Assembly (NCBI RefSeq): GCF_900091495.1
Contig: NZ_LT607413.1
Coordinates: 1,426,001-1,490,000, forward strand
DNA length: 64,000 nucleotides
From: Micromonospora echinospora
Lineage (GTDB): Bacteria > Actinomycetota > Actinomycetes > Mycobacteriales > Micromonosporaceae
Reading direction: 5' to 3'
Below the pieces are notes generated by a model that saw only the letters and a program-made list of their open reading frames with translations, ran no database searches and was not told the origin of the DNA. Of the stretch, positions 22,348 through 45,265 are shown piece after piece (the first letter of the stretch is position 1; the number at the start of each line of letters is the position of its first letter). A program made the position numbers and the translations under genes.

Positions 22348-23652
22348 TCAGGTGGTTTCGACGATCATGGCGGCGGCGACGGTGCGGTTGGTGGCTTCGT
22401 CGATGATGATGAACCCGCCGGTGGTGCGGTTACGGCGGTACTCGTCAGCGAGCAACGGCACCGTGGTCCGCAACCGGACCCGACCGATCTCGTTGAGTTT
22501 CAACTCGGTCGCGGTGTCGTCACGGTGCAGAGTGTTGACATCCAGGCGGTAGTGCAATCCCCGCACGATCGCCCGCGCGGTGCGGGTGGTGTGTTTGATG
22601 GTGTACCGGCCGCCGATCTGCAACGGTCGGGTCTCGTCCATCCAACACACCATCGCTTCGATGTCCTGCGTCGGCGTGGGAGCGTTGTTCGGCCGGCAGA
22701 TCATGTCCCCACGGGAGATGTCGATCTCATCGGTCAAGCGGACGGTGACGGACATCGGCGGGAACGCCTCCCCGACCGGCCCGTCAGCGGTCTCCACCGA
22801 CGCGATACGGGAGGTGAACCCCGACGGCAGGACCATCACCTCATCACCCGGCTTCAACACCCCCGAGGAAACCTGCCCCGCGTAACCCCGGTAGTCCGTC
22901 ACCGTCGTGGACTGGGGACGGATGACGTACTGCACGGGGAACCGGACGTCGACGAGGTTCCGGTCCGACGCGATGTGCACATGCTCCAGGTGGTGCAACA
23001 ACGAGGGGCCTTCGTACCAGGGCGTGTTCTCCGAGCGGGTGACGATGTTGTCGCCCTTCAACGCCGAGATCGGCACCACCGCCAGATCCGGAACATCCAG
23101 TTTCGCGGCGAACGCGGTGAACTCGTCGGCGATCTGCTCGAACACCTCCTGGGACCAGTCGACCAGGTCCATCTTGTTCACACACAACACCAGATGCGGC
23201 ACCCGCAACAGGGAACACAGGAACGCGTGACGGCGGGACTGCTCAACCAGACCCTTCCGGGCGTCGACCAGAATCAACGCGAGATCCGCCGTGGACGCGC
23301 CGGTGACCATGTTCCGGGTGTACTGGGTGTGCCCCGGAGTGTCGGCGATGATGAACTTCCGCCTGGGGGTGGCGAAATACCGGTAGGCGACATCGATCGT
23401 GATGCCCTGCTCCCGCTCCGCCCGCAACCCATCCGTCAACAGGGCGAGGTTCGTGTACTCGTCACCACGAGCAGCCGAAACCGCCTCCACCGCCTCCAAC
23501 TGATCCGTGAACAACGACTTCGTGTCATACAGCAGACGGCCGATCAACGTCGACTTGCCGTCGTCCACACTGCCCGCCGTGGCGAACCGCAACAGGTCCA
23601 TCGACCGGAACGCGGAATCACTGTCGAGCAGCGGCATGGTGTCGGTGGTCAT
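22348..23652 (-). CDS. cysN: Sulfate adenylyltransferase GTPase subunit
   Basis: 434 aa. A translation-factor-type GTPase: G1 'GSVDDGKS' (residues 27-34), 'DTPGHTQYTRNM', 'NKMDLVDW', then beta-barrel domains. With CysD it couples GTP hydrolysis to making APS from ATP and sulfate. Unlike many actinobacterial CysNC proteins it stops at 434 aa and has no APS kinase domain. Its ATG overlaps the cysD stop by one base (TGATG). The three genes cysQ, cysD, cysN are the last of the minus-strand series. Confidence 0.96.
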   Translation of the reverse strand: MTTDTMPLLDSDSAFRSMDLLRFATAGSVDDGKSTLIGRLLYDTKSLFTDQLEAVEAVSAARGDEYTNLALLTDGLRAEREQGITIDVAYRYFATPRRKFIIADTPGHTQYTRNMVTGASTADLALILVDARKGLVEQSRRHAFLCSLLRVPHLVLCVNKMDLVDWSQEVFEQIADEFTAFAAKLDVPDLAVVPISALKGDNIVTRSENTPWYEGPSLLHHLEHVHIASDRNLVDVRFPVQYVIRPQSTTVTDYRGYAGQVSSGVLKPGDEVMVLPSGFTSRIASVETADGPVGEAFPPMSVTVRLTDEIDISRGDMICRPNNAPTPTQDIEAMVCWMDETRPLQIGGRYTIKHTTRTARAIVRGLHYRLDVNTLHRDDTATELKLNEIGRVRLRTTVPLLADEYRRNRTTGGFIIIDEATNRTVAAAMIVETT

Positions 23653-24566
23653 CAGAAGTAGCCCTCCCGCTTGCGGTCCTCCATGGCGGCCTCACTCACC
23701 CGGTCATCCCCCCGGGTCGCACCCCGCTCCGTGATCCGGGTCGCCCCGACCTCCTCGATCACCTTCTCCACCGTGTCCGCATCCGAGCGGACCGCAGCCG
23801 TACACGACGCGTCACCCACCGTCCGGTAGCGGACCCGCGCCACGAACGGCGTCTCCGACCCCCGGGGCTGGATGAACTCGTTGACGGCGTAGAGCATGCC
23901 GTCCCGCTCGATCACCTCGCGTTCGTGGGCGAAGTAGATCGACGGCAGGGCGATCCGCTCCCGAGCGATGTAGTGCCACACATCCAACTCGGTCCAATTC
24001 GACAACGGAAACACCCGAATCGACTCACCCGGATGATGCCGACCGTTGTACAACGACCACAACTCCGGACGCTGATTCTTCGGATCCCACTGCCCGAACT
24101 CATCCCGGAACGAAAACACCCGCTCCTTCGCCCGCGCCTTCTCCTCATCCCGACGCGCCCCACCGAACAACGCATCAAACCGATGCTTCTCCACCGCATC
24201 CAGAAGCACCGGAGTCTGGATCCGGTTCCGGGTGCCGTCCGCCGGTTCGGTGACCAGCCCCCGGACCAGCGCCTCCGGCACGCTGGCCACGATGAGGTGC
24301 AGGCCGAGTTCGTCGACCCGCCGGTCGCGGTACTCCAGCACCTCCGGGAAGTTGTGACCGGTGTCGACATGCATCACCGGAAACGGAATGCTCGCCGGAG
24401 CGAACGCCTTCTCCGCCAACCGGAGCATCACGATCGAGTCCTTACCCCCGGAGAAGAGCAGCACCGGCCGCTCCATCTCCGCCACCACCTCACGCATCAC
24501 GAAGATGCTCTCCGCCTCCAAGGCGTCCAGGTGGGTGGTCTGGTACTGCGCCGATCCGCCGTTCAT
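23652..24566 (-). CDS. cysD: Sulfate adenylyltransferase catalytic subunit
   Basis: 304 aa. It has the PP-loop 'SGGKDS' at residues 39-44, 'HVDTGHNFPE', 'FGGARRDEEKARAKER' and 'TELDVWHYIARE', all as in CysD. It forms APS together with CysN. The frame start at 24566 overlaps the cysQ stop (ATGA). Base composition is patchy: parts around 23940-24240 use more A-ending codons than neighbours, so a mosaic origin is possible. Confidence 0.96.
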   Translation of the reverse strand: MNGGSAQYQTTHLDALEAESIFVMREVVAEMERPVLLFSGGKDSIVMLRLAEKAFAPASIPFPVMHVDTGHNFPEVLEYRDRRVDELGLHLIVASVPEALVRGLVTEPADGTRNRIQTPVLLDAVEKHRFDALFGGARRDEEKARAKERVFSFRDEFGQWDPKNQRPELWSLYNGRHHPGESIRVFPLSNWTELDVWHYIARERIALPSIYFAHEREVIERDGMLYAVNEFIQPRGSETPFVARVRYRTVGDASCTAAVRSDADTVEKVIEEVGATRITERGATRGDDRVSEAAMEDRKREGYF

Positions 24567-25429
24567 CGGGATTCCTTTCCGAGCAGGGACGTCTGCGGTG
24601 CGGCCGTCCCGGCGGCGGCCGTCGACAGCTGCCGGCTCAGGGCCTCCAGCAGCGGCGCGGCCAGATCCGGACGGCAGACCAGCAGGTCGGGCAGGCGGGG
24701 GTCCACCTCGTTGTAGCGCAGCGCGGTCCCGTCGATCCGGCAGGCGTGGAAGCCAGCCGCGGTGGCGACCGCCACCGGGGCCGCCGAGTCCCACTCGTAC
24801 TGCCCCCCGGCGTGGATGTACGCGTCCACCTCACCGGTCACCACCGCCGCGATCTTCGCCCCCGCCGACCCCATCGGCACCAACTCCGCACCGATCTCCT
24901 CGGCCAGGTCGGTCAGGAAGGCAGGCGGACGACTCCGGCTCGCCGCCAGCCGGATCGGGCCGTCGCCGGCCTGGTCGGTGCGCGACCGCAACGGGAACTC
25001 CGTGGTCAACACGCGTCCCTGGGCGGGCAACCCCACCGCCCCGGCGATCAACCGGTGCGGGGTGGAGGCGTGCCGGTGCCAGAGCGCCACGTGCACCGCC
25101 CAGTCCGAACGGCCCTCCTCGGAGAACTCCCGGGTCCCGTCCAGCGGGTCGACGATCCACACCCGGTCGGCGTTCAGCCGGGTCGGCCCACCCCCCTCGG
25201 TGACCGAGCGGCGGGAGTCGTCGTCCTCTTCGGAGAGCACCGTGTCGGTCGGCCGCCAGCGTTCCAGCTCGGCGAGGAGGAACTCGTGGGAGGCCCGGTC
25301 GCCGGCCGCCTTCAGCGCGGCCGGATCGGCGTAACCGTGCTCGGCGCGTACCGCGAGCAGCAGTTCGCCCGCGCGGGCCGCGAGCCACTGGGCGAGCCCG
25401 CCGTCGGACTCCGGTGGGTTGATCGACAT
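24563..25429 (-). CDS. cysQ: 3'(2'),5'-bisphosphate nucleotidase CysQ (PAP phosphatase)
   Basis: 288 aa of the FIG/IMPase superfamily. Metal motifs are 'EEDDDSRRS', 'DPLDGTREF' and 'YEWDSAAPVAVATAAG'. CysQ-type enzymes hydrolyse PAP or PAPS and so remove the by-product of sulfotransferases. Location directly before cysD and cysN supports this over histidinol- or inositol-phosphatase roles. The ATG at 25429 has AGGAGGAG upstream; the long frame to 26593 is a shadow of the permease gene. Confidence 0.9.
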   Translation of the reverse strand: MSINPPESDGGLAQWLAARAGELLLAVRAEHGYADPAALKAAGDRASHEFLLAELERWRPTDTVLSEEDDDSRRSVTEGGGPTRLNADRVWIVDPLDGTREFSEEGRSDWAVHVALWHRHASTPHRLIAGAVGLPAQGRVLTTEFPLRSRTDQAGDGPIRLAASRSRPPAFLTDLAEEIGAELVPMGSAGAKIAAVVTGEVDAYIHAGGQYEWDSAAPVAVATAAGFHACRIDGTALRYNEVDPRLPDLLVCRPDLAAPLLEALSRQLSTAAAGTAAPQTSLLGKESR

Positions 25430-25467
25430 GTGCGCTCCTCCTGCGGGATCGGGGCCGGTGGACACGG

Positions 25468-26289
25468 TCACTGGACGGCCCGCCGGGTGAAGGACCGGAC
25501 GCTGAGCCAGGTCAGGGCGACCGCCATGCCGGTCAGCACCAGCACGCAGACCCAGGCCGGCATGTGCGGTACGTCGGGCAGCATCGCGCCCCGCACACCC
25601 TCCGAGACGTACGTCATCGGGTTGGCGGCGGTGACCACCTGGAACCAGCGCATCGACTCCAGGCGGGGCCACGGGTAGTGGATGCAGCCGGTCCAGATGA
25701 TCGGCGTGACGATGACCGAGAAGGTGACGTTGATCCGCTGGATCGGGAGGATGGTGGAGAGGGTCATCCCGATGCCGCCGCCGACCCACGCACCGAGCAG
25801 GGCCACCAGCAGGGCGGTCGGCAGGCCCTCCAGCCGCCACGGCGCGGAGCCGACCACCAGGGCCCCGAGCGGGTACATCAGGACCGCCGCGAGCAGGCCC
25901 CGGATGGTGGCGACCACCAGCTTGCCCACCGCGACCAGGCTGGTCGGAAGCGGCGCGAGCAGCCGGTCCTCGATCTCCATGGTGAAGCCGAACTCCTTCA
26001 CCAGCGGCAGGGCGGTGCTCTGCAGCGCGGTGGTGAGGGCGGCCAGCGCGATCACGCCGGGTAGGAAGAGGTTGGCGAACGACCGCTCGACGATGCCCTG
26101 GCCGCCGAGGATGTGGCTGAACACGAAGAGCATGAACAGCGGGGTCATGCCGACCTGGATCAGGATCACCCACAGCTCCTTGCCGGTGACCAGTAGGTCG
26201 CGGCGGAGCAGGGCGAGGAAGACCCGGCCGGCGGGTGGGCGGTTCCGGACCTCGCGGCGTACCGGGGTGGGGGTGTCGAGGGCGGTCAC
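25468..26289 (-). CDS. ABC-2 type transporter permease (DrrB-like)
   Basis: 273 aa with six membrane helices. It has the ABC-2 pattern 'RDLLVTGKELWVILIQVGMTPLFMLFVFSHILG' at the start and 'ANPMTYVSEGVRGAML' near the end. Paired with the ATPase just upstream, whose stop overlaps its GTG (GTGA). Such exporters carry lipids, drugs or polysaccharides. In this locus the likely cargo is the lipid or polyketide product. Confidence 0.9.
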   Translation of the reverse strand: MTALDTPTPVRREVRNRPPAGRVFLALLRRDLLVTGKELWVILIQVGMTPLFMLFVFSHILGGQGIVERSFANLFLPGVIALAALTTALQSTALPLVKEFGFTMEIEDRLLAPLPTSLVAVGKLVVATIRGLLAAVLMYPLGALVVGSAPWRLEGLPTALLVALLGAWVGGGIGMTLSTILPIQRINVTFSVIVTPIIWTGCIHYPWPRLESMRWFQVVTAANPMTYVSEGVRGAMLPDVPHMPAWVCVLVLTGMAVALTWLSVRSFTRRAVQ

Positions 26290-27431
26290 CGTGGGTCCCT
26301 TCCGGTGAGTTCGATGAAGACGTCCTCCAGGCTCGGCTCGCCGATGTGGATGTCGTTGAGCGCCGCCGACCGGCCGGTGAGCAGGGACAGCGTCGGGCCG
26401 AGCAGGTTGGCGGGGTCGGTGGCGAGGTGCAGGCGCACCCGGATCCGGCCCTGGGCGCCTGCGGCAGACAGGGTAGCGGTCGGCGCGTTCCCGTTGCCCC
26501 GGGCGCGGGCGGCGAGCTTCGCCAGCGCGCCCGGTCCCAACTTGGCGAGTGCGGCCCGACCCGCAGGGCCCAGGCCGGCACCCCGACCCGCACCGGCTGC
26601 GCCAGCCGCGCCGACGGGCAACGGCCGCCGTTCGGCCTTGCGTACGCCGTCCAGCTCGCGCAGCGCGGCGACGACCTCGTCGGCGTCGTCGCGGGCGGCC
26701 GGGGTGACCGTGAGATCCAGGATGGCCTGCCCGGCCAGGCCCCGCACGAGGTTCTGCGGGGTGTCCACGGTGAGCAGCTTGCCGTGGTCCACGATGCCCA
26801 CCCGGTCGACCAGGTTGGCCGCGTCGTTCATGGCGTGGGTGGTGAGCACGATGGAGACGCCCCGCTCGCGCATCTCCCGGATCCGGCTCCAGATCAGCAG
26901 CCGGGTCTGCGGGTCCAGCGCGTTGGTCGGCTCGTCGAGGAAGAGCACCTCGGGCTCGTGCATCCAGGCCCGCGCGATCATGAGCCGCTGCGCCATCCCG
27001 CCCGAGTACGCCTCGATCCGGCGGTCCGCGCGCTCGGCCAGGCCGAAGCGTTCCAGCAGCTCCTTCGCCCGTTCCTCGGCCTCGGGCCGGGGCACCCCGT
27101 GGTAGGCGGCGTGGTACAGGAGGTTCTGCCGGGGGGTCAGCGCGCGGTCCAGGTTGTTGTGCTGGGGCACCACCGCCAGGTGGGCGCGGGCACCGACCGG
27201 GTCCCGGCTGACGTCGACGCCGCCGACCAGGGCCCGGCCACCGGTGGCCCGCAGCCGCGTGGTGAGGATGCCGATGGTGGTCGACTTTCCGGCCCCGTTC
27301 GGCCCGAACAGCCCGAAGGTCTCGCCCGGCGCGACGGTGAACGACAGTCCGTCGACGGCGTTGGTCGTGGCCCGGGGGTAGCACTTGACGAGATCGACGA
27401 CCTCGACCGCCGGACCGTCTCTGCTGGGCAT
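26286..27431 (-). CDS. ABC transporter ATP-binding protein (DrrA/NodI-like)
   Basis: 381 aa. Walker A 'GPNGAGKST' (43-51), Q-loop 'VVPQHNN', signature 'YSGGMAQRL', Walker B 'VLFLDEPT' and the H-switch 'TTHAMND' are all intact. After residue 270 there is an unusual insert of about 55 residues rich in Ala, Gly and Arg before the C-terminal DrrA-like domain. It energises the permease encoded next. A site AGGAGA precedes the ATG, 39 bases after the esterase stop. Confidence 0.92.
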   Translation of the reverse strand: MPSRDGPAVEVVDLVKCYPRATTNAVDGLSFTVAPGETFGLFGPNGAGKSTTIGILTTRLRATGGRALVGGVDVSRDPVGARAHLAVVPQHNNLDRALTPRQNLLYHAAYHGVPRPEAEERAKELLERFGLAERADRRIEAYSGGMAQRLMIARAWMHEPEVLFLDEPTNALDPQTRLLIWSRIREMRERGVSIVLTTHAMNDAANLVDRVGIVDHGKLLTVDTPQNLVRGLAGQAILDLTVTPAARDDADEVVAALRELDGVRKAERRPLPVGAAGAAGAGRGAGLGPAGRAALAKLGPGALAKLAARARGNGNAPTATLSAAGAQGRIRVRLHLATDPANLLGPTLSLLTGRSAALNDIHIGEPSLEDVFIELTGRDPR

Positions 27432-27470: not shown

Positions 27471-28559
27471 TCAGGAGCCGGCCGGTCGGGGGTGCGCGTC
27501 GAAGAACTTCCAGATCTCCGCGGTCGCGTCCAACGCGGTCGAGGGGGGTTCGAGGCCGAGGAGTTGCTCGGCGCGGGGGTTCGGCTTCCCGCCCGGCCAC
27601 TGGTGACCGGCGTCGGCGATGGTGATCAGGTCGACGGCGCGGCCCTGCGCGCAGGACGACGTCGACCGGGTCACCGGCCCGTCGGCACGCTCGGTCGGCG
27701 CGGCGCAGTCGTCCACCGCGCGCCACTTCGCCATCAGCTCGGTCAGCGGCGGCCCGTCGATCTTCACCGGGTTGCGTCCGGTGCCGTCGTTGTCACGCTT
27801 GCCCGGACCACCCCGGTACGGCATGGTCTCGTCACGCAGGCCGTGGATGTGCAGCACGCTGACCGGTGCCGGCGACGCGCACTCGCCGGCCAGCGAGGTC
27901 GCCACCGCGCCGACCGCGGCGAAGAGGTCGGTGTCGCAGGCCAGCCGGTACGCCAGCAGCCCACCGTTGGAGATCCCGGTGACGTAGGTGCGGGCCGGGT
28001 CCACCGGCATCCGGTCGCGGAGGGTGCCGACCAACGCCTCGACGAAGGCGACGTCGTCGACCCCCTGCCGGACCGGTTGGCCGCAGCAGTGTTCGCTGGC
28101 CGCCCAAGCCCGCTTCACCCCGTCCGGGAAGGCCACCACGAAGCCGCCCCGGTCGGCCTCCTCGGTCCAGCCGTACGCCTCCTCGGCCTGCTCGCCGGTG
28201 CCGGCCGCGCCGTGCAGCATGACCACCAGCGGCACCGGACCGGTCAGCTCCAGCGAGGCCGGCCGGTACAGCCGGTAGGTGCGTTCCCGACCGTCGACGG
28301 TGAGGGTGTGCGCGCTCGACCCGGTCGGCACGTCGGAGCCGGACCCGGGCGCGGTGGAGGTGTTCGGTGCCGGCGCCCGGTCGCCGTCGCGTCGGTCGTC
28401 ACGCCGGTCGGCGGTGCACCCGACGGCACCGGTCAGTCCGACCAGGGCGGCGAGGAACCCGGCGAGCAGGGACGGGGAGCGGAGCCGGCGGGTGCCACCC
28501 GGGGCACCCGCAGGACGGGAGGTCGTGGCCTCCCGGCGACGGGCAGTCAAAGGCATCAT
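27471..28559 (-). CDS. Secreted LpqC-type esterase / PHB depolymerase-like hydrolase
   Basis: 362 aa. A Tat-like or lipoprotein start: basic residues, helix 'SLLAGFLAALVGLTGAVGC' with a loosely lipobox-like AVGC, and a charged linker. The catalytic domain shows 'LVVMLHGAAGTGEQAEE', nucleophile 'GISNGG' and 'DAGHQWPGG' with the catalytic His. It matches the LpqC/Feruloyl-esterase family. An outside-acting hydrolase next to the exporter might process the exported product. Two adjacent ATGs (28559 and 28556) exist; the first is used. Confidence 0.85.
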   Translation of the reverse strand: MMPLTARRREATTSRPAGAPGGTRRLRSPSLLAGFLAALVGLTGAVGCTADRRDDRRDGDRAPAPNTSTAPGSGSDVPTGSSAHTLTVDGRERTYRLYRPASLELTGPVPLVVMLHGAAGTGEQAEEAYGWTEEADRGGFVVAFPDGVKRAWAASEHCCGQPVRQGVDDVAFVEALVGTLRDRMPVDPARTYVTGISNGGLLAYRLACDTDLFAAVGAVATSLAGECASPAPVSVLHIHGLRDETMPYRGGPGKRDNDGTGRNPVKIDGPPLTELMAKWRAVDDCAAPTERADGPVTRSTSSCAQGRAVDLITIADAGHQWPGGKPNPRAEQLLGLEPPSTALDATAEIWKFFDAHPRPAGS

Positions 28560-28698: not shown

Positions 28699-30516
28699 TC
28701 AACGGCCCCGGGTGTCGTACCGGATGAGTTCCCAGCCACCCTCGGGCACGTCGTCGGTCGGGTCGGCCCGCAGGTTCATCGGGTTCGCCATGCCCAGGTA
28801 GAGCGTGGCGCCGTCGGTGACCATGTTGCGGATGCCGTAGTTGAGGTAGTTGCCGACACCGGAGTCGCTGACCACCTTCGCGGGCTCGCTGGCGGACTCG
28901 AAGACCAGCAGGTCGCCGCCGTAGACCGGCTCCGGCAGGGCCGGGTCGTCGTCGGCCGCCGCCGCCAGCGACGGAGCGCTGAGCGCCTCGGCGGCCGCCT
29001 CGACCGACAGGCCGGACATCGCGGCGGCCTCCTGGCTGAGTTCCTTGGCCAGGTAGCTCCAGTCCATCGTGCCGACGTAGAGCCGGCCGCCGGCCACCGC
29101 CATCTTCCAGGTGTAGTTCAGGTACGGGTTGCCGAAGCCGGACGAGCCGTACAGCGGGGTCTGTCCGGTGGAGACCTTCGCCCAGGCGCCCGCGCCGCCG
29201 TTCGCCGCCGGGTCGTACGCGGGCAGCTCGGCCGCGCCGTAGAGCAGCTCGACCTTCTCCGCCCGCTCACCCAGCCGCTTGCCCCGGTAGATGCTGATCG
29301 CCCGCTGGGTGTTCTGGATCGTCGCCTGCCTCGCCTCGTCGGTGGCCGGCGGGTAGGCCAGCAGGTGCTGCCTCGTGGCCTTCAGCGGCACGTGCATGGT
29401 GCCCCAGTAGAGGTACCCACGGTAGGAGACGAGACCGCCCAGACCGTAGCCGGCGGCCACCACGGGATCCGGCTCGTACGCGGAGACGTCCCAGACCTGC
29501 TGCCAGCTGTCCGCGTCCTCGGGGGTGAGGCCGGGCGCGCCCTTGGCGAGCACCGGGCTCGTCCAGACCGCGGCGAGCTTGCTCGGCGGGGCGGGCTCGT
29601 CGGCGGCGCTGCTCAACTCGCCGTCCGAGCCGGGCCAGGTGCTGACGGCGATCCGCCCGTCGTGGACGGTGATGTCGGCGGCCTGCGCCGGCAGGTTGCC
29701 GACGATCTGGAAGTTGAACGGGTCGGTCTTGCTGCCGACCCACCGCAGCACGTGACCGCGCAGCGAACCGTTCGCGCCGACGCCGACGCCCGCGTACAGG
29801 GCGTCTCCGGCGACCGTGAAGTGCCGGATGTTGCCGAACTCGGGGAAGTTCCGCGAGCCCAGGAAGGTGCCGGTGTCGGTGTCGAAGGCGAACAGGTTGA
29901 TGCTCTTGCCGATGGCCGGGCCACCGAGCAGGGCCACCCCGCCGAAGCTGCCGGCCGCCCGGATGCCGGTCGTGCTCCGCAGCCGGTCCGAGTGTTCCTT
30001 GGCCGCACCGGTCACCAGGGCGGTCTTCTCGGTGAGCTGCTTGGCCTTGGTGTCGTAGCTGTAGAACCGGGGCATCCGGTGGTCACCCAGGTATCCCGGC
30101 AGCTGCGGGTTGGTCTTGACGACCTGGCTCTCCTGGTACTCGCAGACCCAGTCGTCGTTGAGGACCGGTTCGTTGCTGCCCAACTGCCGTCCGCTGGTGA
30201 GGCAGTTGACGTTGGCGCCGGTGCCGAACCAGAGGTTCTCGCCGGCCCGGGTCATCCCCCACAGGTACCCCTGGTTCACCTTGGCCTGCCCCGAGGCGCA
30301 CGGCGGGCCCGCCGGGTACGGGAGGCCGACGCCCGCGAAGCACTCGTCCGGCTCGGCCTTCGCGATCACCTGCGGGTTCGGCTTCGGCTGGTGGTGCCGG
30401 TCGTCCTCGGCGGTCGGTGCGCCGAGCGCGGTTGCCGGGGCTGTCAGCGCGGCCCCGAGGCCCAGTACGGCGACGGCCGCCCAGAGCCGCCGAGAGTGGA
30501 TCCGGATGGGTTTCAC
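28699..30516 (-). CDS. Large secreted protein, propeller-like, unknown function
   Basis: 605 aa. A clear signal peptide ('RRLWAAVAVLGLGAALTAPATALGAPTA', Arg-Arg before the helix) leads to a mature part rich in repeats such as 'GTGANVNCL', 'GNIRHFTVAGDALYAGVG' and 'LYVGTMDW', where hydrophobic strands alternate with G/D turns, as in beta-propellers. Four Cys are in the N-terminal 110 residues. No catalytic motif is recognised. It lies between sulfotransferase and esterase in the same direction. I do not recognise the family. Confidence 0.75.
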   Translation of the reverse strand: MKPIRIHSRRLWAAVAVLGLGAALTAPATALGAPTAEDDRHHQPKPNPQVIAKAEPDECFAGVGLPYPAGPPCASGQAKVNQGYLWGMTRAGENLWFGTGANVNCLTSGRQLGSNEPVLNDDWVCEYQESQVVKTNPQLPGYLGDHRMPRFYSYDTKAKQLTEKTALVTGAAKEHSDRLRSTTGIRAAGSFGGVALLGGPAIGKSINLFAFDTDTGTFLGSRNFPEFGNIRHFTVAGDALYAGVGVGANGSLRGHVLRWVGSKTDPFNFQIVGNLPAQAADITVHDGRIAVSTWPGSDGELSSAADEPAPPSKLAAVWTSPVLAKGAPGLTPEDADSWQQVWDVSAYEPDPVVAAGYGLGGLVSYRGYLYWGTMHVPLKATRQHLLAYPPATDEARQATIQNTQRAISIYRGKRLGERAEKVELLYGAAELPAYDPAANGGAGAWAKVSTGQTPLYGSSGFGNPYLNYTWKMAVAGGRLYVGTMDWSYLAKELSQEAAAMSGLSVEAAAEALSAPSLAAAADDDPALPEPVYGGDLLVFESASEPAKVVSDSGVGNYLNYGIRNMVTDGATLYLGMANPMNLRADPTDDVPEGGWELIRYDTRGR

Positions 30517-30598: not shown

Positions 30599-31558
30599 TC
30601 AGCCGACCGGCTGACGGGCCCGGGACGGGTCGACGACCCGGTCGGCAACCTGCTCCGCCCACGTCTCCGGGTTGTCGAAGTCGAGGAAGCGGCCGAGCCG
30701 GCCCAGTTCGGCGACCGGGTCGGCGACCAGTTCCTCGTACCGCATCGTCAACAGGTGGGCCGGCTTCTCGTCGGCCAGCGCCTGCTCGGCCTGGGCCGCC
30801 ATGAACGCGCAGAGGCCGAGGTAGCGGCGCAGGTCCTGGCCGCGCTCGCGGAGCGCGTCGGCGGTCAGCCGGTGCGGCAGGAACTGCTCCATGTCCGCCG
30901 GCACCTCCTGGCCGGGCTGCACCCGGAACGGGTCCAGCCCGCAGCGGCCGAGGAACTCCACCCGGAGCTGGATGAGCTGGAACGACGAGTGCCGGCTCAT
31001 CGACTTCGCGGTCGGTTCCCAGTCCCGGGTCAGGTAGACGATCTTCGCCTCGGGGAAGCCCCGGAGCAGGTACGGCGCCACGTGGCTGGAGCCGCCGGAG
31101 CGTTCCACCCAGCGCTTCTTTCCGGTCAGCACGGCCAGCAGGTCCAGGAAGTCCTGGTGGTGCCGGGCCACGCTCTGCTCGGGGAAGTCGGGCACCCGCC
31201 GGCCCAGCTCGTCGAAGAGGGCGTCCGGGTCGTCGGAGACCTTCGACAGGGTGATCGCCAGGATCCGGGGCAGCTCGGTCATCCGGTCGCCCCACCGGCC
31301 GGTGGACGGGTAGTGCAGCTCCTTCGGGGGCAGCCCGATCCGGAACAGCGTGGACAGCTCCGCCTTGGGGCTGGACAGCACGTCCCAGTACTCCGCCCCG
31401 GTGATCACCTCGGCGCTGCGCGCCCAGGGCGCCACCGACATGAAGAACTCCTGGGCGGAGAGCGTGTCCGGCTCCTCCGCGATCAGGTCGGAGAGGAGCG
31501 TCGACCCACACCGTCCACTGCTGATGATGATCGACCGACCGGTGATCGGGGTGTCCAT
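30599..31558 (-). CDS. PAPS-dependent sulfotransferase
   Basis: 319 aa. The 5'-phosphosulfate loop is 'ISSGRCGSTLLSDLI' (about residues 12-26) and the 3'-phosphate block is 'AKIVYLTRDWEPTAKSMSRHSS', with the conserved Arg and Ser. These match Sulfotransfer_1/3 enzymes that move sulfate from PAPS to an OH or amine of a small molecule or lipid. A strong AGGAGGA precedes the ATG at 31558. An alternative ATG at 31588 overlaps the hydrolase stop (ATGA). The local cysDN and cysQ genes fit as PAPS supply and PAP removal. Confidence 0.9.
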   Translation of the reverse strand: MDTPITGRSIIISSGRCGSTLLSDLIAEEPDTLSAQEFFMSVAPWARSAEVITGAEYWDVLSSPKAELSTLFRIGLPPKELHYPSTGRWGDRMTELPRILAITLSKVSDDPDALFDELGRRVPDFPEQSVARHHQDFLDLLAVLTGKKRWVERSGGSSHVAPYLLRGFPEAKIVYLTRDWEPTAKSMSRHSSFQLIQLRVEFLGRCGLDPFRVQPGQEVPADMEQFLPHRLTADALRERGQDLRRYLGLCAFMAAQAEQALADEKPAHLLTMRYEELVADPVAELGRLGRFLDFDNPETWAEQVADRVVDPSRARQPVG

Positions 31559-31584: not shown

Positions 31585-32469
31585 TCATGAGGTGGTGGTG
31601 TGGTCGACGGTGAGCCCACCGGCGACGGTGACCCCGCGCTCGGCGGGCGTCCCTGCCCCGACCGGCAGCGCGCACTCGGCGGCCAACCAGTCGAAGACGT
31701 GCCGGCGTACCTGCTCGGGCTGGTCGATCAGGACGGTGTGCTTCTCGTCAGGTAGAACGACCGAGCGGGTCTGCGGAAGCAGCCGCCGGACGTTCGGGGC
31801 CAGTTCGTGCACCGCCGACCGGCCGCCGTAGAGGCAGAGCACCGGGCAGCCGACGGCCGCCAGCCGGTCGGCCGGCGGCAGCGCGCTGGTCGGCAGTTCC
31901 TCGGCGAGCGTGGTGGTGGTCAGCATCTGCCGGGTCTCGTCGGCCCGGCGGGCGGCGAGCCGCCCCCGCCGGACCCCGATCTCGGCCACCGTGCCCTCCC
32001 GGGGCAGGCGGTCGGCGACCCGGGCGAGGCGGACCTTCACCCGGGCCATCCACTCCGGGATGGGCGGAGCGGACTCGACCGCCACGATGCCGGCGACCCG
32101 GTCCGGGTGCCGCGCCGCGTACCCGAAGGCGATCGTGCCGCCGAAGGAGTTGCCGCAGAGCAGCAGCGGACCGGTCACGTCCAGCTCGGTGAGCAGTCCC
32201 GCCAGGTCGTCGACGAAGTCGGCGAGGGCGTACCCGGTGGCGGGCCGGTCGCTGCGCCCGTGCCCGCGCAGGTCGTACAGGACCACCGGGAACCCGGCGG
32301 TGGCCAGCGGCTCGGCGAGGGTGAAGTACCAGCTCGCCATCGTGTCCGAGGCCATGCCGTGGATCAGCACGGCGGTCGGCATCGACGCGGACCGGTCCGC
32401 CGGTGGCGGGTGGGGCGGGTCCAGGCGCTGCGCGTGCAGCGTGATCCCGTTCGCCCGAACCATGGTCAC
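31585..32469 (-). CDS. Alpha/beta hydrolase (possible chain release enzyme)
   Basis: 294 aa from the GTG that overlaps the ACP stop (GTGA); an ATG six bases in is possible. Motifs are 'LIHGMASDT', 'YDLRGHGRSDRP', nucleophile 'GNSFGG' (Ser about 108) and late His 'EKHTVLID'. Neighbours are ACP and sulfotransferase in one run, so a thioesterase-like role in release or transfer of the chain is plausible. It may instead hydrolyse a small ester. Confidence 0.85.
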   Translation of the reverse strand: MTMVRANGITLHAQRLDPPHPPPADRSASMPTAVLIHGMASDTMASWYFTLAEPLATAGFPVVLYDLRGHGRSDRPATGYALADFVDDLAGLLTELDVTGPLLLCGNSFGGTIAFGYAARHPDRVAGIVAVESAPPIPEWMARVKVRLARVADRLPREGTVAEIGVRRGRLAARRADETRQMLTTTTLAEELPTSALPPADRLAAVGCPVLCLYGGRSAVHELAPNVRRLLPQTRSVVLPDEKHTVLIDQPEQVRRHVFDWLAAECALPVGAGTPAERGVTVAGGLTVDHTTTS

Positions 32470-37625: not shown

Positions 37626-40600
37626 CAGCCCGACGCGGTGTAGACGACGGAGGTGTCGCTCGGCTCGGCCCAGGCCAGCTCACGGAGCAGGCTGAGCGCG
37701 CCCTCCTCCGGGTCGATCAGGCCGATGCCGCGGCGGGCGTACTCCCGGCTCAGCTCGGCGGTGACCATGCCGCCGTGGCCGGCGCCCGGGGCCCACGGGC
37801 CCCAGTGGACGGTCAGGCAGCGGATCCCGGTCTGGGTGGACCAGCGGGTGCCGATGGTGTCCAGGGCGTCGTTGGCGGCGGCGTAGTCGGACTGGCCCCG
37901 GTTGCCGTAGGCGGCGGCGATGCTGCCGAAGAAGACCACGAACTTCGGCTGGTCGGGCAGCTCGTCGAGACCGGCGAGCACCGCGCGGGCCCCGTTGACC
38001 TTGACGTCGAAGACCCGGGTGAAGGACGCCGGGTCCTTCTCGGCGATCAGCTTGTCCTCGATGATGCCGGCCGCGTAGACCAGGCCGTCGAGCCGACCGT
38101 GGTGCTGGTGGATCTCGGCGAGCAGGGCCTTCGTCGCGTCCGCGTCCCGCACGTCGAGAGTGTGGTAGCGCACCTCGCCGCCGAGTTCGGTCAGCTCGGC
38201 GATGGTCGCCTCGACCTCCCGGCCGGCCATGATGGCCTGCGCCCGGCGCTCGATCTCGGCCGGTGCGCGCAGCCCCTGCTTCACCAGCGCGGCGCGCAGC
38301 TCGGTCTTGTCCCGGGCGGCGGCCAGCGCCGCGTCCTCCGGACCCGCCGGCCTGGGGGTGCGGCCCACCAGCTCGATCCGGCACCGGCCGGCCGAGGCGA
38401 GGGTACGGGCGAACCAGGGGGTGATGCCCCGGGCCCCACCGATCAGGACGACCACCGACTCGTGGCTGAGGCCGAGCGCGGCGACCTCCGAGGCTCCTTC
38501 ACCGGCCGGGCCGGCACCCCGCGAGGCGAGCGCACCCAGGTCCACCTGGACCAGGTCGGCGACGTACCGCTCGTCGCCACGCCGGGCGACCACCGGGGGC
38601 TTCTCCTCGCCGACGGTCAGCAGTTCGTCGAGGAGCTGCCGGGCCAGGACCTCCGGTTCCGTCTCGACGTCCAGCTCGACGAAGCGGGCGGTCAGCTCCG
38701 GGTACTCCCGGGCGATGGTGCGGAACAGGCCGGGCATGCCGTCGGCGGTGCCGCCGGCCGCCGGGGCGCCGGCGCCGATCAACCAGCGCGGCCCGGTCGC
38801 CAGCACCCGCTTGACCAGCGGGAACACCGACGGCAGCAGGGGTCCTTCGGTGCGGGTGAGCCCGTCGAGCAACAGGAACCCGTCGAAGCCCTGGTCGGCC
38901 TGCTCGCTGTCGAGGACGCCGAGCTGGCCGCCCGCGCCGTGCTCACCGAGCAGCTCGGCCAGGTACGCCCCGACCGCGCCGCCACCGGTGATCAGGAACT
39001 GCTTGCCGGCGAGGAGTTCGGCGGGGTCGCCGAGGGACGCGGGCCGGACCGACTCCCGGGGCACCAGGCGCTTCGGCGGGATGCCGGGGTTCGCCAGTTC
39101 CTCGGTCGCGGCCGGGGCGGGGGCCGGCGCAGCCTCGACCGGGGCGGCCGTGGCGTTCATCTTCTGGTCGAGCCAGGTGACCATGGCCCGCACGGTGCGC
39201 GCCTTGACCAGGTCCTCCAGCTCCGACTCGTCACCCTCCACCGCGAGATCCAGCCGCGACGCGACCTCACCGGCCACCTCAGCCCGCTTGATCGAGTCGA
39301 TCGACAGATCCGCCTCAAGATCCAGATCCAACTCGATCAGATCCACCGGATAACCCGTCCGCTCACTGATCACCGCCAGGATCGCGGCCTGGAAGTCCGC
39401 CAACGACGCACCACCCGCCGGAGCAGCCGGGACGGCCGGAGCCGCGACGGCGGGCGCGGTGGCGACCGGAGCGGAGACCGTGACGGTGGCGGACATCTTC
39501 GCCTCGAGCCAGGTGACCATGGCCCGCACGGTGCGCGCCTTGACCAGGTCCTCCAGCTCCGACTCGTCACCCTCCACCGCGAGATCCAGCCGCGACGCGA
39601 CCTCACCGGCCACCTCAGCCCGCTTGATCGAGTCGATCGACAGATCCGCCTCAAGATCCAGATCCAACTCGATCAGATCCACCGGATAACCCGTCCGCTC
39701 ACTGATCACCGCCAGGATCGCGGCCTGGAAGTCCGCCAACGACGCACCACCCGCCGGAGCGGCCGGCGCGGCCACGGGTGCCACGGCGACGGCGGCCGGG
39801 GCGGCGGTGCTGCCCATCCGCTGGTCGAGCCAGGTGACCATGGCGCGGACGGTGCGCGCCTTGACCAGGTCCTCCAGCTCCGACTCGTCACCCTCCACCG
39901 CGAGACTCAGCCGCGACGCGACCTCACCGGCCACCTCAGCCCGCTTGATCGAGTCGATCGACAGATCCGCCTCAAGATCCAGATCCAACTCGATCAGATC
40001 CACCGGATAACCCGTCCGCTCACTGATCACGGCGAGGATCGCGTTCTGAAAGTCCGCCAGCGAGGGACCGGCCGGGGCGGCCGGCGCGGGTGCCGGCGGG
40101 GCGACGGGCGCGGGGGCGTACGTGGTCGCCGTCGCGGTCGTCGCGGACCCGCCGTTGGTGGAGACCGCCATCGCCGGGACCGGCGCCGGCTCGGCCACCG
40201 GGACGAACTGCGCCGGGGCGTACTGCACGGGCGCGGCCGGAGCCACCGCCGAGCCGTTCGGGTACCCGTCGGTCCGGTGCGGTTCGGCCGGCTGCCAGAC
40301 CAGGCGTCCGCCGCTGCCGCCGTCACCGAGGAAGGCGAGCATGATGTCCCGCTGCGAGGCGATCATGTCCCGGGTGGTCCGCAGGAACTCGCCGAGCAGC
40401 TCGCCCCGGATGTCCTGCACGACGTGCTGGACGGGGACGGGCGCGGGGGCTGCGGCGGGGGCGTGGGAGTGGGCACCGTTCGAGGGGCTCATCGGCAACT
40501 CCTTGACGATTCGGGGAGGGGTCATGCCGCCGGGGAGGCAGTCGCCGTTCTGGTCGCGGACGAGTTGCCCGTCGACCGTCCAGACCGGACGGCGGTTCGG

Positions 40601-43600
40601 CGCGGCGTCGCGGGGCCGGCCGCTGACCCGTCCGTGGAACAGCCAGTCGGTACGGACCGGCACGCCGGCGCAGGCGATCTCGCCGACCGAGATGAGGAAT
40701 CCGCGCAGTCCGTCGGCCGGTCCACGCTCGGTGGCGACGGCCCGGTACGGCCGGTCGCCGAGCACCGCCTTCACCAGCTTGCTGAGCACCTGGCCGGGGC
40801 CGACCTCGACGAAGGTGCGGGCACCGGCGGCGTACATGGCCTCGATCTGCTCGACGAAGCGGACCGGTTCCCCGATCTGCTCGGCGAGCTGCTGGCGGAG
40901 CTGGTCGAGGTTGTCGACGTAGGGGGCGGCGGTCAGGTTGGACCAGACCGGGATGCGCGGTTCGCTGATCCGCCGGTCGGCGAGCACCTCGGCGAAGCGC
41001 TCCACCGCGCCGGCCACCAGCGGGCTGTGGAAGGCGCAGGCAACCGGGATCAGCTTCGCCGAGACACGGGCCTCCTTGAGCGCCACCACCGCCGCCTCGA
41101 CCTTGGCGGTCGGGCCGGAGATGACGATCTGCTTCGGCGCGTTCCGGTTGGCGAGCACCACCTCGCTGGTCAGCCCGGCGCTGGCCAGCACCTGGGCGAC
41201 CTGCTCGGGCGTGGCGCTGACCGCGGCCATGGTGCCCGGGTCCTCGCCGGGGGTCGCGCCGAGGATCGCCGCAGCCCGCTCCCGGCTGAGTTCGAGCAGC
41301 GTACGGGCGTCGAACGCACCGGCGACGCAGAGTCCGACGAGTTCGCCGTAGCTGTGCCCGCCGGTCATGTCCGGCCGGACGCCGAGGCGGCGCAGCAGGT
41401 GGTCCACGGCGAGGCCGCCGATGCCCAGCACCGGCTGGGCGACCCGGGTGTCCCGGACCCGTTCCTCCTGCCGCTTGCGGCTGGCCGGGTCGAAGGCGGT
41501 CGGCGGGAAGAGCAGCTCCGCCGCGTCGCGGTCCAGTTCCAGGTAGTGCCGCAGCTCGGGGAAGGTGACGAAGAGTTCGGCGAGCGCGCCGGGGCGCTGG
41601 CTGCCCTGGCCGGGGAAGAGGAAGGCCACCTTGCCGGGGTCGGCGTCGTCGGCCGGTTGCACCAGTCCCTTGGCGGGGTCGTGCTCACCGGCGAGGGCCC
41701 GCCGCAGCAGGGTGTCCAGTTCGGTCACGTCCCGGGCGACGATCGCGACCCGGGTCGGTCCCCGCCGTCCGGCGGCCTCCCCGGCCACCTGGGCGGCCAG
41801 TTCGGCGAGGCGGCCGGGCCGGTCCCGGTCCCCGTCGGCGGCCAGCCGGTCGGCAAGCTGCACGATCGCCTGGTGGGCGGCGGCCCGGTCGACGCCGGGG
41901 AAGCAGAACAGTTCCGCCGGCCAGGTGCGCCGGGCGTGCCGGGGCTCCGGGGCGTCACCGTAGGCGGCGAGCACGGTGTGGAAGTTGGTGCCGCCGAACC
42001 CGAAGGCGCTCACCCCGGCGATCCGCTCCCGGGCCGGGGCCGCCCAGGGGCGGGCCTCGGTGTAGAAGGCGAACGGGCTCTGCTCCGGGTGCCAGGCCGG
42101 GTTGGGCCGTTCCAGGTGGATGGTCGGCGGGCGGATGCCGTTGTAGAGGGAGAGCGCCACCTTGATCACGCCGGCCAGGCCGGCGGCGCACTTGGTGTGC
42201 CCGATCTGCGACTTCACCGAGCCGAGCGCGCAGCTTCCGGGCTCCGCGCCGGCCTCGGCGAACATCCGGGTGAGCGTCTCCAGTTCGGTCCGGTCGCCGA
42301 CCACCGTGCCGGTGCCGTGCGCCTCGACCAGGCCGACCTCGCGCGGCGAGATGCCGCTGCGGCGGTACGCCCGGTCCAGGGCCCGGCGCTGCCCGTCCGT
42401 CCGGGGCGCGGTGAGGCCGAGGGCACGGCCGTCGCTGGAGCCGCCGAGCCCCTTGACCACCGCGTAGATCCGGTCGCCGTCCCGCTCGGCGTCGGCGAGC
42501 CGCTTCAGCACGATGCAGGTGACGCCCTCGCCGAGGGCGATGCCGTCACCGGTCGAGTCGAACGGCCGGGACCGGCCGGTCGGCGAGAGCGCGTGCGCGG
42601 AGGTGAACATCAGGTAGTCGTTGATGCCGTTGTGCAGGTCCGCGCCGCCGCAGATCATCATGTCGCTGTCGCCGCTGGCCAGCTCCTTGCAGGCGGCGTC
42701 CATCGCGGCCAGTGACGAGGCGCAGGCCGCGTCGATGGTGTAGTTGGGACCGCCCAGGTCGAGCCGGTTCGCCACCCGGCCGGCGATCACGTTCGCCAGC
42801 ACGCCGGGGAAGCTGTCCTCGGTGACCGTGGGGAGCAGTTCCTCCATCTCGGCGGGCACGTCGCCGAGGTACGCCGGAAGCATGGTGCGCAGGGTCTGCG
42901 CGTGGCCCATGTCGCTGCCGGCCTCCGCGCCGAACACCACGCCGGTGCGGGAGTGGTCGACTCCCGGGGCGTCGTACGCGTACCCGGCGTCGACCAGTGC
43001 CCGGTGGGAGATCTCCAGGGCGAGCAGCTGGGTCGGGTCGATGCTGGCCAGGGCGGCCGGGGGGATGCCGTAGCCGATCGCGTCGAACGGCACCGGCTCG
43101 ATGAAGCCGCCCCACTTGGAGACGCTGATCCGGCCGGTCTGCCCGGGGCCGACCTCCGGGGCGTAGTAGAGGTCGGTGTCCCAGCGCTGCGGGGGCACCT
43201 CGCCGACGGCGTCCGCGCCGCTGAGCACCGTACGCCAGAAGCTCTCCAGGTCCGGCGAGCCGGGCAGGATGCAGGCCATCCCGACGATCGCGATGTCCAG
43301 CGGCGCGGGGGCGTCCTCGACCTCGGCGGGCGGCGCCAGCCGGTCCCGGATCACGTCCAGGCTGTTCCCGTGGTACTCGCGGGCTCCCGCGCTGACCGAG
43401 TCGTGCAGCCCGGCGATGGTGGTCGCGCTGTCCCGCAGCACCGCCACCTGTCCGGCCATGAACATGCCCTCGGCGGCCTGCGTGTCCTCGTCGACCGAGC
43501 GCAGCGTGTCGCCCTCGCGGACGATGCCCTTGCTGGCGATCCGGGCCCGGCCGATGTTGAGCTTCTCGAGTTCCTGCCACGCCTCGCGGCTCTCCACCCC

Positions 43601-45265
43601 GGACTCGCGCAGCTCGTCGCGGACCCGGTGGAAGTCGTCGACGAACGGGGTGGGCAGGCACCGGGTGACGTGCCCGGGGGCGGTCTCCAGCAGCGCGGTC
43701 CGGTCGGCGGCGATCGCCTCGCGCTGGAAGAGCGGCTGGACCGCGTTGTGTTCCACCGCCTCGGCGGTGAAGAGGTACGCGGTGCCCATCAGCACACCGA
43801 TCCGCGCGCCCCGGCGGGCCAGCGGCGACGCCATGGTGGCGACCATCGCGGCCGAGCGGGCGTCGTGGATGCCGCCGGCGAAGAAGACCTGGAGCGCCGT
43901 GGCCGCGTCGGGTTCGGCGTCGAGGTACTCCTCAAGCACCATGAGCTGGGCCTCCCAGAGCGGGAAGCTGGCCCGGGGACCGGTGTGGCCGCCGCACTCG
44001 GCGCCCTCGAAGATGAACCGGCGGGCCCCGGAGCGCAGGAATTGCCGCAGCAGTCCCGGCGACGGGACGTGCAGGAACGTGGTGATCCCCTGCTGCTCCA
44101 ACGCCTTCGCCTGCGGGGGCCGGCCACCGGCGATGATCGCGCAGGCGGGACGCAGCTCGCGGATGATCTCCAGCTGCGCCTCGCGCACCTCCTCGGGGGC
44201 GAAGCCGAGCACGCCGACGCCCCAGGGCCGGTCGCCGAGCCGGGCGGCGGTCTCGGTGAGGATCCGGCGGGTCTGTTTCGCGCCGTTGAGGGCGAGCGCG
44301 ACGAAGGGCATGCCGCCGTCCTCGGCGACGGCGGCGGCGAAGCCGGGCTCGTCGCTGACCCGGGTCATCGGCCCCTGGGCGACGGGCACCCGGATGCCGA
44401 GGTCCACGGCCAGCGGCGAACCCGGCGCCAGCACCTCACCGGCGGCGTCGTCGGTGGCGGCGTCGAGCATCATGGCCCGGATGCCCCGGACGGCGGCGGC
44501 GGTGTCCGGCCAGCGCTCGGCGAAGACGCTGGCGAGCCAGCCGTCCTGGCCGATCGGCACCAGCTCGGAGTCCTCGTCGTGCGGGCCGCCGCGCCGGATT
44601 CCCCGGATCCCGTCGACCAGCACCGTCTCGGAGCCGTCCATCCGCCGGATGGCGCTCTGCACGTCGGTCGGCAGCTCGGACTCGGGCATCAGCGCGAGCT
44701 GGCTGTCCAGCACGACGCCGACCGCCCCACCGACCAGGCAGGCGGCCGCGGTGCGGGGGCCGACGCCACCGGCGACCCAGACCGGCAGGTCCAGGGTCTC
44801 GTCGGCGACGAGTTGCTGGAGCAGGACGAACGAGCTGAGGTCGCTGCCCCGCCCACCGGCCTCCATACCCCGGGCGATCAGGCCGTGGGCGCCGGCCTCG
44901 GCTGCGGCGTGCGCCTCGTCCCGGCTGGTCACCTCGACCAGTACCCGGTAGCGCGGGGCCACCTCGGCCACCGTCCAGGAGGAGTCCGAGGTCAGGACGA
45001 CCAGGTCGACCCCACCCGGCGCGACGCGTTCCACCTCGTCCACCGTGGCCTGGCACCCGGCCGGTACCCGTATCCCGAGCGGCCCCGACGACCAGGCGAC
45101 GGCCTGGACGAGCGCGCGCAGCACCCAGTCGTCGCCGCCCGCCAGGTCCAACACTCCCAACCCACCGCCGACGCGAGCGGCGGCGGCCAGTCGCGGGGCG
45201 GGCTCTACCGCGCCGCCGGGGTTGACGACCATGACGAGGTCGCGCGTGTACGTTGCAGTACTCAT
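37622..45265 (-). CDS. Iterative type I synthase A: NPD(x2)-KS-AT-ACPx3-KR
   Basis: 2547 aa. Residues 1-640 are two FMN TIM-barrel (NPD/PfaD-like) halves, of which the second has 'VPVAQGPMTRVSD' and 'GAECGGHTG'. KS 655-1105 has Cys848, His983, His1023. AT 1210-1515 has 'GHSYG' (Ser1305) and 'CAFHS' (malonyl type). Three ACPs carry 'LSIDSIKR' with Ser1772, Ser1879 and Ser1991, the DSIKR style being typical of PUFA synthases. KR 2085-2535 has 'GGARGI', Ser2448, Tyr2461 and Asn2465. The enoyl reductase is thus fused at the front and not separate as PfaD usually is. ATG at 45265 with GGGAG upstream. Together with synthase B it can do a full reducing cycle. Confidence 0.92.
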   Translation of the reverse strand: MSTATYTRDLVMVVNPGGAVEPAPRLAAAARVGGGLGVLDLAGGDDWVLRALVQAVAWSSGPLGIRVPAGCQATVDEVERVAPGGVDLVVLTSDSSWTVAEVAPRYRVLVEVTSRDEAHAAAEAGAHGLIARGMEAGGRGSDLSSFVLLQQLVADETLDLPVWVAGGVGPRTAAACLVGGAVGVVLDSQLALMPESELPTDVQSAIRRMDGSETVLVDGIRGIRRGGPHDEDSELVPIGQDGWLASVFAERWPDTAAAVRGIRAMMLDAATDDAAGEVLAPGSPLAVDLGIRVPVAQGPMTRVSDEPGFAAAVAEDGGMPFVALALNGAKQTRRILTETAARLGDRPWGVGVLGFAPEEVREAQLEIIRELRPACAIIAGGRPPQAKALEQQGITTFLHVPSPGLLRQFLRSGARRFIFEGAECGGHTGPRASFPLWEAQLMVLEEYLDAEPDAATALQVFFAGGIHDARSAAMVATMASPLARRGARIGVLMGTAYLFTAEAVEHNAVQPLFQREAIAADRTALLETAPGHVTRCLPTPFVDDFHRVRDELRESGVESREAWQELEKLNIGRARIASKGIVREGDTLRSVDEDTQAAEGMFMAGQVAVLRDSATTIAGLHDSVSAGAREYHGNSLDVIRDRLAPPAEVEDAPAPLDIAIVGMACILPGSPDLESFWRTVLSGADAVGEVPPQRWDTDLYYAPEVGPGQTGRISVSKWGGFIEPVPFDAIGYGIPPAALASIDPTQLLALEISHRALVDAGYAYDAPGVDHSRTGVVFGAEAGSDMGHAQTLRTMLPAYLGDVPAEMEELLPTVTEDSFPGVLANVIAGRVANRLDLGGPNYTIDAACASSLAAMDAACKELASGDSDMMICGGADLHNGINDYLMFTSAHALSPTGRSRPFDSTGDGIALGEGVTCIVLKRLADAERDGDRIYAVVKGLGGSSDGRALGLTAPRTDGQRRALDRAYRRSGISPREVGLVEAHGTGTVVGDRTELETLTRMFAEAGAEPGSCALGSVKSQIGHTKCAAGLAGVIKVALSLYNGIRPPTIHLERPNPAWHPEQSPFAFYTEARPWAAPARERIAGVSAFGFGGTNFHTVLAAYGDAPEPRHARRTWPAELFCFPGVDRAAAHQAIVQLADRLAADGDRDRPGRLAELAAQVAGEAAGRRGPTRVAIVARDVTELDTLLRRALAGEHDPAKGLVQPADDADPGKVAFLFPGQGSQRPGALAELFVTFPELRHYLELDRDAAELLFPPTAFDPASRKRQEERVRDTRVAQPVLGIGGLAVDHLLRRLGVRPDMTGGHSYGELVGLCVAGAFDARTLLELSRERAAAILGATPGEDPGTMAAVSATPEQVAQVLASAGLTSEVVLANRNAPKQIVISGPTAKVEAAVVALKEARVSAKLIPVACAFHSPLVAGAVERFAEVLADRRISEPRIPVWSNLTAAPYVDNLDQLRQQLAEQIGEPVRFVEQIEAMYAAGARTFVEVGPGQVLSKLVKAVLGDRPYRAVATERGPADGLRGFLISVGEIACAGVPVRTDWLFHGRVSGRPRDAAPNRRPVWTVDGQLVRDQNGDCLPGGMTPPRIVKELPMSPSNGAHSHAPAAAPAPVPVQHVVQDIRGELLGEFLRTTRDMIASQRDIMLAFLGDGGSGGRLVWQPAEPHRTDGYPNGSAVAPAAPVQYAPAQFVPVAEPAPVPAMAVSTNGGSATTATATTYAPAPVAPPAPAPAAPAGPSLADFQNAILAVISERTGYPVDLIELDLDLEADLSIDSIKRAEVAGEVASRLSLAVEGDESELEDLVKARTVRAMVTWLDQRMGSTAAPAAVAVAPVAAPAAPAGGASLADFQAAILAVISERTGYPVDLIELDLDLEADLSIDSIKRAEVAGEVASRLDLAVEGDESELEDLVKARTVRAMVTWLEAKMSATVTVSAPVATAPAVAAPAVPAAPAGGASLADFQAAILAVISERTGYPVDLIELDLDLEADLSIDSIKRAEVAGEVASRLDLAVEGDESELEDLVKARTVRAMVTWLDQKMNATAAPVEAAPAPAPAATEELANPGIPPKRLVPRESVRPASLGDPAELLAGKQFLITGGGAVGAYLAELLGEHGAGGQLGVLDSEQADQGFDGFLLLDGLTRTEGPLLPSVFPLVKRVLATGPRWLIGAGAPAAGGTADGMPGLFRTIAREYPELTARFVELDVETEPEVLARQLLDELLTVGEEKPPVVARRGDERYVADLVQVDLGALASRGAGPAGEGASEVAALGLSHESVVVLIGGARGITPWFARTLASAGRCRIELVGRTPRPAGPEDAALAAARDKTELRAALVKQGLRAPAEIERRAQAIMAGREVEATIAELTELGGEVRYHTLDVRDADATKALLAEIHQHHGRLDGLVYAAGIIEDKLIAEKDPASFTRVFDVKVNGARAVLAGLDELPDQPKFVVFFGSIAAAYGNRGQSDYAAANDALDTIGTRWSTQTGIRCLTVHWGPWAPGAGHGGMVTAELSREYARRGIGLIDPEEGALSLLRELAWAEPSDTSVVYTASGW
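39169..40065 (-). repeat. Three tandem near-identical ACP-coding units
   Basis: Units 1 and 2 are the same over 256 bases (39169-39424 and 39505-39760, offset 336). Unit 3 (39826-40065) differs by only a few bases. Codon use in the units is less GC-biased than in the linkers. This indicates recent duplication or ongoing gene conversion. Confidence 0.92.

Follow-up and report, generated by a model that had tools for sequence, protein, structure and literature searches.

What does a bacterium make from an operon that joins a pair of polyunsaturated fatty acid (PUFA)-synthase-like enzymes to a sulfotransferase and to genes of sulfate activation? The question is raised by a 64,000-nucleotide stretch of Micromonospora echinospora DNA (hereafter the window; NCBI RefSeq contig NZ_LT607413.1, G000:C1:1426001-1490000, within a single-contig genome of 7.78 Mb), in which twelve minus-strand genes run from the synthase gene synA to cysN. 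On the sequence comparisons presented here, the operon product is fairly probably an exported O-sulfated lipid or polyketide. The first-pass annotation of the window had described the twelve genes, all of which are present and in order from the ATG of synA at 45265 to the stop of cysN at 22348, joined by overlaps or short gaps, the largest being the 139 bases between sec605 and est and the 82 bases between the sulfotransferase gene (ST) and sec605. Its domain calls also hold in Pfam and NCBIfam scans, the phosphopantetheinyl transferase (PPTase) of the window synB being weak. Present results add a divergently oriented TauE gene, a second cysQ-cysD-cysN (cysQDN) set about 65 kb away and another locus of the genome in which synthase and ST genes occur together.

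The association of the synthases with ST (30599..31558) was examined in 121 genomes of the Micromonosporaceae, the window genome and 120 drawn from the family, which were searched three times, with ST, with the 522-residue C-terminus of SynB (32820..37625) and with the secreted protein sec605 (28699..30516). ST was found in 27 genomes at E <= 1e-40, comprising 24 strong matches (best E <= 1.1e-129) and three weak ones; the SynB C-terminus was also found in 27, comprising 24 strong matches (best E <= 4.6e-213) and three diverged forms at 40-43% identity; and sec605 was found in 24 at E <= 1e-60. The strong ST, synB and sec605 matches fall in an identical set of 24 genomes, which belong to 11 of the 44 sampled genera, and a Fisher test for this co-occurrence, which ignores shared ancestry, gives ~7e-26. 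In each of the 25 strong ST loci, the second locus of the window genome included, the lone acyl carrier protein (ACP) gene and the hydrolase gene abh stand directly before ST, and synB lies ahead of these three genes in 23 of the 25, and also in the remaining two (G107 and G142) when another stretch is read. The weak ST matches in G079, G099 and G115 and a second match in G133 (33-34% identity) have no ACP or abh alongside and were left out of the strong count.

The same gene order was sought in relatives, and the full order with TauE in front is present in at least four of 18 genomes of the same genus (G006, G008, G012 and G018, the last being exceptional in having no cysQ), while G013, also of this genus, has a variant cluster in which the ABC transporter and cysQDN genes were unmatched. 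A scan of named genomes, which retained 80 loci from 87 relatives, found the full order with TauE in front in named Micromonospora as well, the full cluster being present for example in Micromonospora sp. ATCC 39149 (L035), and ST follows abh in all ten ST-type named loci that are long enough (L031, L032, L034, L035, L037, L040, L041, L044, L049 and L050), L033, L036 and L038 ending short of the ST position. These named ST-type loci derive from Micromonospora, Actinoplanes, Couchioplanes and Pseudosporangium. The second synthase-ACP-abh-ST locus of the window genome (L011, L014; G000:C1 ~6077000-6096000) encodes an ST 58% identical to that of the window and has sec605 and est upstream, with cysQDN and ABC genes unmatched. 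A Mutator-family transposase gene lies near this locus (L011:7068-8351). The identical set of 24 genomes and the unbroken ACP-abh-ST adjacency bear out the earlier proposal that the synthase pair and ST form one unit and, together with the recurrence of this arrangement in two loci of the window genome with STs this far apart, support the reading of a sulfated product.

Further support comes from nine related loci in which a UDPGT-type glycosyltransferase (GT) replaces ST. These GT-type loci are those of G084, G091 and G104 (L190-L192), the family members whose SynB is diverged, and of Streptomyces (L039, L042, L048), Acidiferrimicrobium (L043), Stagnimonas (L045) and Solimonas (L047). They share the synA-synB core, the lone ACP and abh with the ST-type clusters, some with an ABC transporter nearby, but differ in the exchanged gene and in that the sec605/est family was unmatched in the stretches read. 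The glycosyltransferase, identified with Pfam in L039, L043 and L045 and with tblastn in the others, adjoins ACP and abh in 9/9 of these loci, ST was unmatched in all nine, and no such glycosyltransferase was matched by tblastn in 22 ST-type loci. All nine GT-type sequences fall into a single clade (support 1.000) in an unrooted tree built from 41 SynB C-termini, and one exchange at this slot would explain the ST/GT pattern, the unrooted tree leaving its direction either way. The slot after abh looks like a choice of head group, sulfate or sugar. Since sugar and sulfate are both commonly attached to hydroxyls, the shared core would most simply make a hydroxylated chain, and the swap predicts the same kind of hydroxylated chain, bearing different heads, from both cluster types.

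The domains of the synthases themselves form a PUFA-synthase-like set, in which tandem ACPs accompany KS, AT, KR, DH and ER and the order resembles that of PfaA. SynA (37622..45265) is a PfaA-like iterative synthase of the order NMO/ER-KS-AT-ACPx3-KR, for which Pfam gives NMO/ER, KS, AT, PP-binding and KR and motif reading gives three LSIDS ACP motifs beside KS, AT and KR. SynB comprises KS, AT and DH followed by a candidate C-terminal ACPS-type PPTase, and its catalytic residues are kept in a seven-member alignment (KS Cys214, AT Ser650, DH His1099 and Asp1256). A PDB sequence search with the PPTase region gave no match; this domain is perhaps decaying in the window synB because another PPTase serves. 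The synA protein resembles the omega-3 PUFA synthase PfaABCD in its tandem ACPs and in its score against the NCBIfam PfaA equivalog (1002.2 bits), which falls short of the cut-off of 1010.1, and it differs in that ER and PPTase are fused in the present pair, that the ACPs number three and that ST is linked. The score against the equivalog for the sulfolipid-1 synthase Pks2 (432.9 bits) lies below its NCBIfam cut-off of 2400. PUFA-synthase-like clusters with uncharacterised products occur in actinobacteria as members of the Type L secondary lipid synthase clusters (Shulse and Allen 2011; PMC3098273). Type L clusters likewise have PUFA-synthase-like KS, AT, KR and DH and begin, at the 5' end, with a PfaD-type ER, but they have a fused PfaBC of the order KS-CLF-DH2-AT (PMC3098273), whereas in the present cluster synB is KS-AT-DH-PPTase, ER is fused to synA, and ST, sec605 and est accompany the synthases.

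Downstream of synB are the stand-alone ACP (32466..32780; PP-binding, 33.8 bits) and abh (31585..32469), a thioesterase-like alpha/beta hydrolase matching Pfam Abhydrolase_1. The proposed catalytic triad of abh (Ser108, Glu132 and His244) is conserved in 31/31 ST-type sequences, Glu132 is replaced by Asp in 2/9 GT-type sequences, and Glu132 is also found in most ST-free clusters. ST matches the Pfam family Sulfotransfer_3 (54.4 bits, cut-off 27), and its GRCGST motif, a loop which presumably binds the 5'-phosphosulfate, is invariant across 40 sequences. Family match, fold and conserved loop together identify ST as a predicted sulfotransferase dependent on 3'-phosphoadenosine-5'-phosphosulfate (PAPS).

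The secreted proteins and the transporter divide into near-constant and variable parts. Sec605, of 605 residues with a signal-like N-terminus by eye, matched no Pfam or NCBIfam family, and its structure model is a beta-propeller, with propeller structures among its matches. Its gene is in the cluster in 22/24 genomes and on another contig in G124 and G133. The est gene (27471..28559), whose product appears secreted or lipoprotein-like by eye and resembles poly(hydroxybutyrate) depolymerases (type 1 scl-PHA-depolymerase-like model NF050058, 176.6 bits, NCBIfam cut-off 150), is in the cluster in 21/24, being unmatched in G053 and not placeable in G124 and G133. In G107 and G121 both genes lie upstream of synA, as they do in the second locus of the window genome. 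Relatives of sec605 also occur outside both clusters of the window genome (G000:C1:58196-59599 and 2467669-2469495, the latter split in two matches), and the clusters of genus g41 (L179, L183, L184 and L185) carry two or three tandem copies. An ABC-2 exporter pair, consisting of a DrrA-like ATPase (26286..27431) and an ABC-2 permease (25468..26289), both called from profile matches, lies downstream in 13/24 clusters; an exported product fits this count and the sec605 genome profile, which is the same as that of ST. The TauE/SafE permease gene (46091..47014, plus strand; PF01925, 140.4 bits), divergent from synA, is a possible sulfate uptake system and stands upstream of synA in G000, G006, G008, G012, G018, G031, G039 and G066 and in L032, L034, L035, L037 and L038. 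It was unmatched upstream in 7/7 other ST-type loci (G053, of which less than 2 kb upstream was read, G063, G082, G089, G108, G132 and G146).

The last three genes of the operon encode a cysQ-like 3'-phosphoadenosine phosphatase (24563..25429; Inositol_P, 96.8 bits, and 90.3 bits against the CysQ model, under its cut-off of 228.8) and the small and large subunits of sulfate adenylyltransferase, cysD (23652..24566; above three NCBIfam cut-offs) and cysN (22348..23652; TIGR02034, 562.4 bits, cut-off 336.1), the last without an adenosine-5'-phosphosulfate (APS) kinase domain. APS kinase is needed for PAPS, and a 572-residue protein encoded outside the cluster (G000:C1:3194940), which has an APS kinase domain with a sulfate-adenylyltransferase-like part, can in principle be the PAPS source. 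Dedicated cysDN genes lie downstream in seven of the 24 clusters (G000, G012, G031, G039, G077, G097 and G132), indicating that cysQDN is an accessory supply module. Among these, G132 has cysD-cysN straight after est, without ABC or cysQ, and the cluster cysN of G031 (L168) matches only piecewise in different frames, which suggests either assembly errors or a pseudogene. The sole cysN of four g41 genomes (G085, G119, G139 and G146) is separated from ST by ~13-16 kb that include prs, rplY and pth.

In 36 genomes, cysN copy number is two in 9/9 with cluster cysDN and one in 26/26 without, G132, with four equal-score matches on four contigs, being set apart. The other cysQDN set of the window genome (L010:14069-17209) stands beside pth, rplY and prs and is read as the housekeeping copy. 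The two sets form a patchwork, with stretches of complete identity, 107, 174, 188 and 284 bases long, interspersed with 60-base bins at 42-75% identity. Within-genome copies are sisters in 8/9 genomes in the cysN tree, those of G006 grouping with the copy of a close relative, and pair in 8/9 in the cysD tree, where G012 is the exception; some copies are partial. Given this within-genome pairing and the shared position in the cluster, the two copies are best read as evolving in concert by gene conversion, with repeated independent duplication as the alternative.

From the gene content, order, linkage, co-occurrence, copy number and fold class, which were observed directly, we infer the order of reactions, a hydroxyl acceptor, retention of the sulfate and carriage of the cluster product by the exporter. 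SynA and SynB, working iteratively in the manner of a PUFA synthase, would assemble a long acyl chain with at least one hydroxyl, the lone ACP and abh would take over and release the chain, and ST would transfer sulfate from PAPS to the hydroxyl. The product would then be exported and meet the secreted beta-propeller and esterase outside the cell. In one lineage TauE may serve sulfate uptake, the ABC-2 pair export, the duplicate cysDN the supply of APS and cysQ the removal of 3'-phosphoadenosine-5'-phosphate. This scheme is supported by the presence of the exporter in just over half of the clusters, the near-constant sec605, the extra cysN copy and the APS kinase encoded elsewhere.

The main rival scheme holds that sulfate is a leaving group. 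The closest structures to ST by VIA-align are those of CurM, of the curacin pathway, and of the cyanobacterial olefin synthase (OLS), that of CurM being nearest, and in those systems sulfate is lost; here ST would sulfate a beta-hydroxyacyl-ACP, and hydrolysis by abh would yield a terminal alkene as CO2 and sulfate leave. The setting is similar in that ST stands beside an ACP and an alpha/beta hydrolase. In CurM and OLS, however, ST and thioesterase are fused behind a KS-AT-KR-ACP module, whereas ST and abh are separate genes in this cluster, in which no fatty acyl-AMP ligase or terminal KS-AT-KR module was seen; abh is also common to ST-free clusters. As to a thioesterase of the decarboxylating type, abh has Glu132, shared with most ST-free clusters, and the CurM thioesterase ranks 27th of 215 for abh. 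Such an elimination is unlikely. Alternatively, ST could act away from the chain, on a glycan, small alcohol or wall component, while the synthases give an acyl part or membrane lipid. The ST family spans many acceptors, Foldseek giving STF9, TPST and heparan sulfotransferases, and Actinoplanes missouriensis requires two other sulfotransferases to form sporangia, for which a sulfated polysaccharide has been proposed (PMC13390465). This explanation is quite improbable, as ST-type loci had no matched glycosyltransferase, ST follows ACP and abh without exception, and its replacement by a glycosyltransferase suggests that the chain is the acceptor.

A third rival explanation is that the cysQDN and ABC genes are mere neighbours, the cluster having settled near sulfate-activation genes that serve general assimilation. 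Both gene sets are missing from many clusters, and the four g41 clusters lie in the prs-rplY-pth-cysQDN region with a sole cysN. The cysQDN copy of the window lineage is nevertheless an extra one that overlaps or abuts adjacent genes, and its order is retained in nine genomes, the cysD-cysN pair of G132 looks like a separate recruitment, and TauE tracks the same lineages, making chance proximity very doubtful. Several further observations weigh against the proposed sulfated product. ST could act on another substrate, and the co-occurrence does not represent 24 independent events because the genomes are related. The PPTase end of the window synB (32820-33440) scores 17.9 bits, below the cut-off of 25, two scanned relatives reaching 36.4 and 41.8 bits. 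No ABC-2 pair lies beside 11/24 clusters, G066 has only cysQ, and 12 clusters show no cysDN in the stretch read (the contig of G124 ends early). The first-pass annotation had placed all twelve genes in one pathway and had named independence of cysQDN from the synthases as evidence to the contrary; such independence is found in part, most clusters being without adjacent cysDN, so that the synthase-ST part of the proposal stands, while its inclusion of cysQDN and the exporter, which are accessory, was too broad.

It is an evenly balanced proposition that these clusters represent an undescribed class of bacterial sulfolipid, with an interchangeable head-group gene, a new propeller family and cysQDN kept matched by gene conversion. 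The class would, with the same even balance, combine a PUFA-synthase-type chain across Micromonosporaceae, a propeller limited to the cluster-bearing genomes sampled and a cysQDN copy private to some lineages. Mycobacterial sulfolipid-1, made with Pks2 and Stf0, offers a likeness, being an exported lipid produced by a type I polyketide synthase (PKS) and a PAPS sulfotransferase, and heterocyst glycolipid synthases offer another, in which a PUFA-like iterative synthase beside a glycosyltransferase yields a glycosylated long-chain alcohol. Among the papers listed in searches of open-access literature, none was recognised as describing the cluster, and the main text of PMC13291983 does not contain the word 'sulfotransferase'. 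The fixed ST gives a handle on function, as it predicts a product that can be labelled with 34S or 35S in many culturable genera. The cluster also adds a secreted family, sec605, that has no Pfam or NCBIfam match and shares the genome profile of ST, and it is a clear example of supply genes that were duplicated into a biosynthetic cluster and seemingly stay matched to the housekeeping set.

Beyond the family, a search of viral contigs with ST found no relative, and a class-wide search found ST in 3/197 genomes at E <= 1e-60, two of which are the window genome and G012. In the third, G245 (L222, G245:C1:4128000-4147900), no further cluster gene was matched within 3.9 kb, and the ST, at 39% identity the closest outside the family in this class sample, lies behind a 1956-residue open reading frame that is PKS-like by eye.
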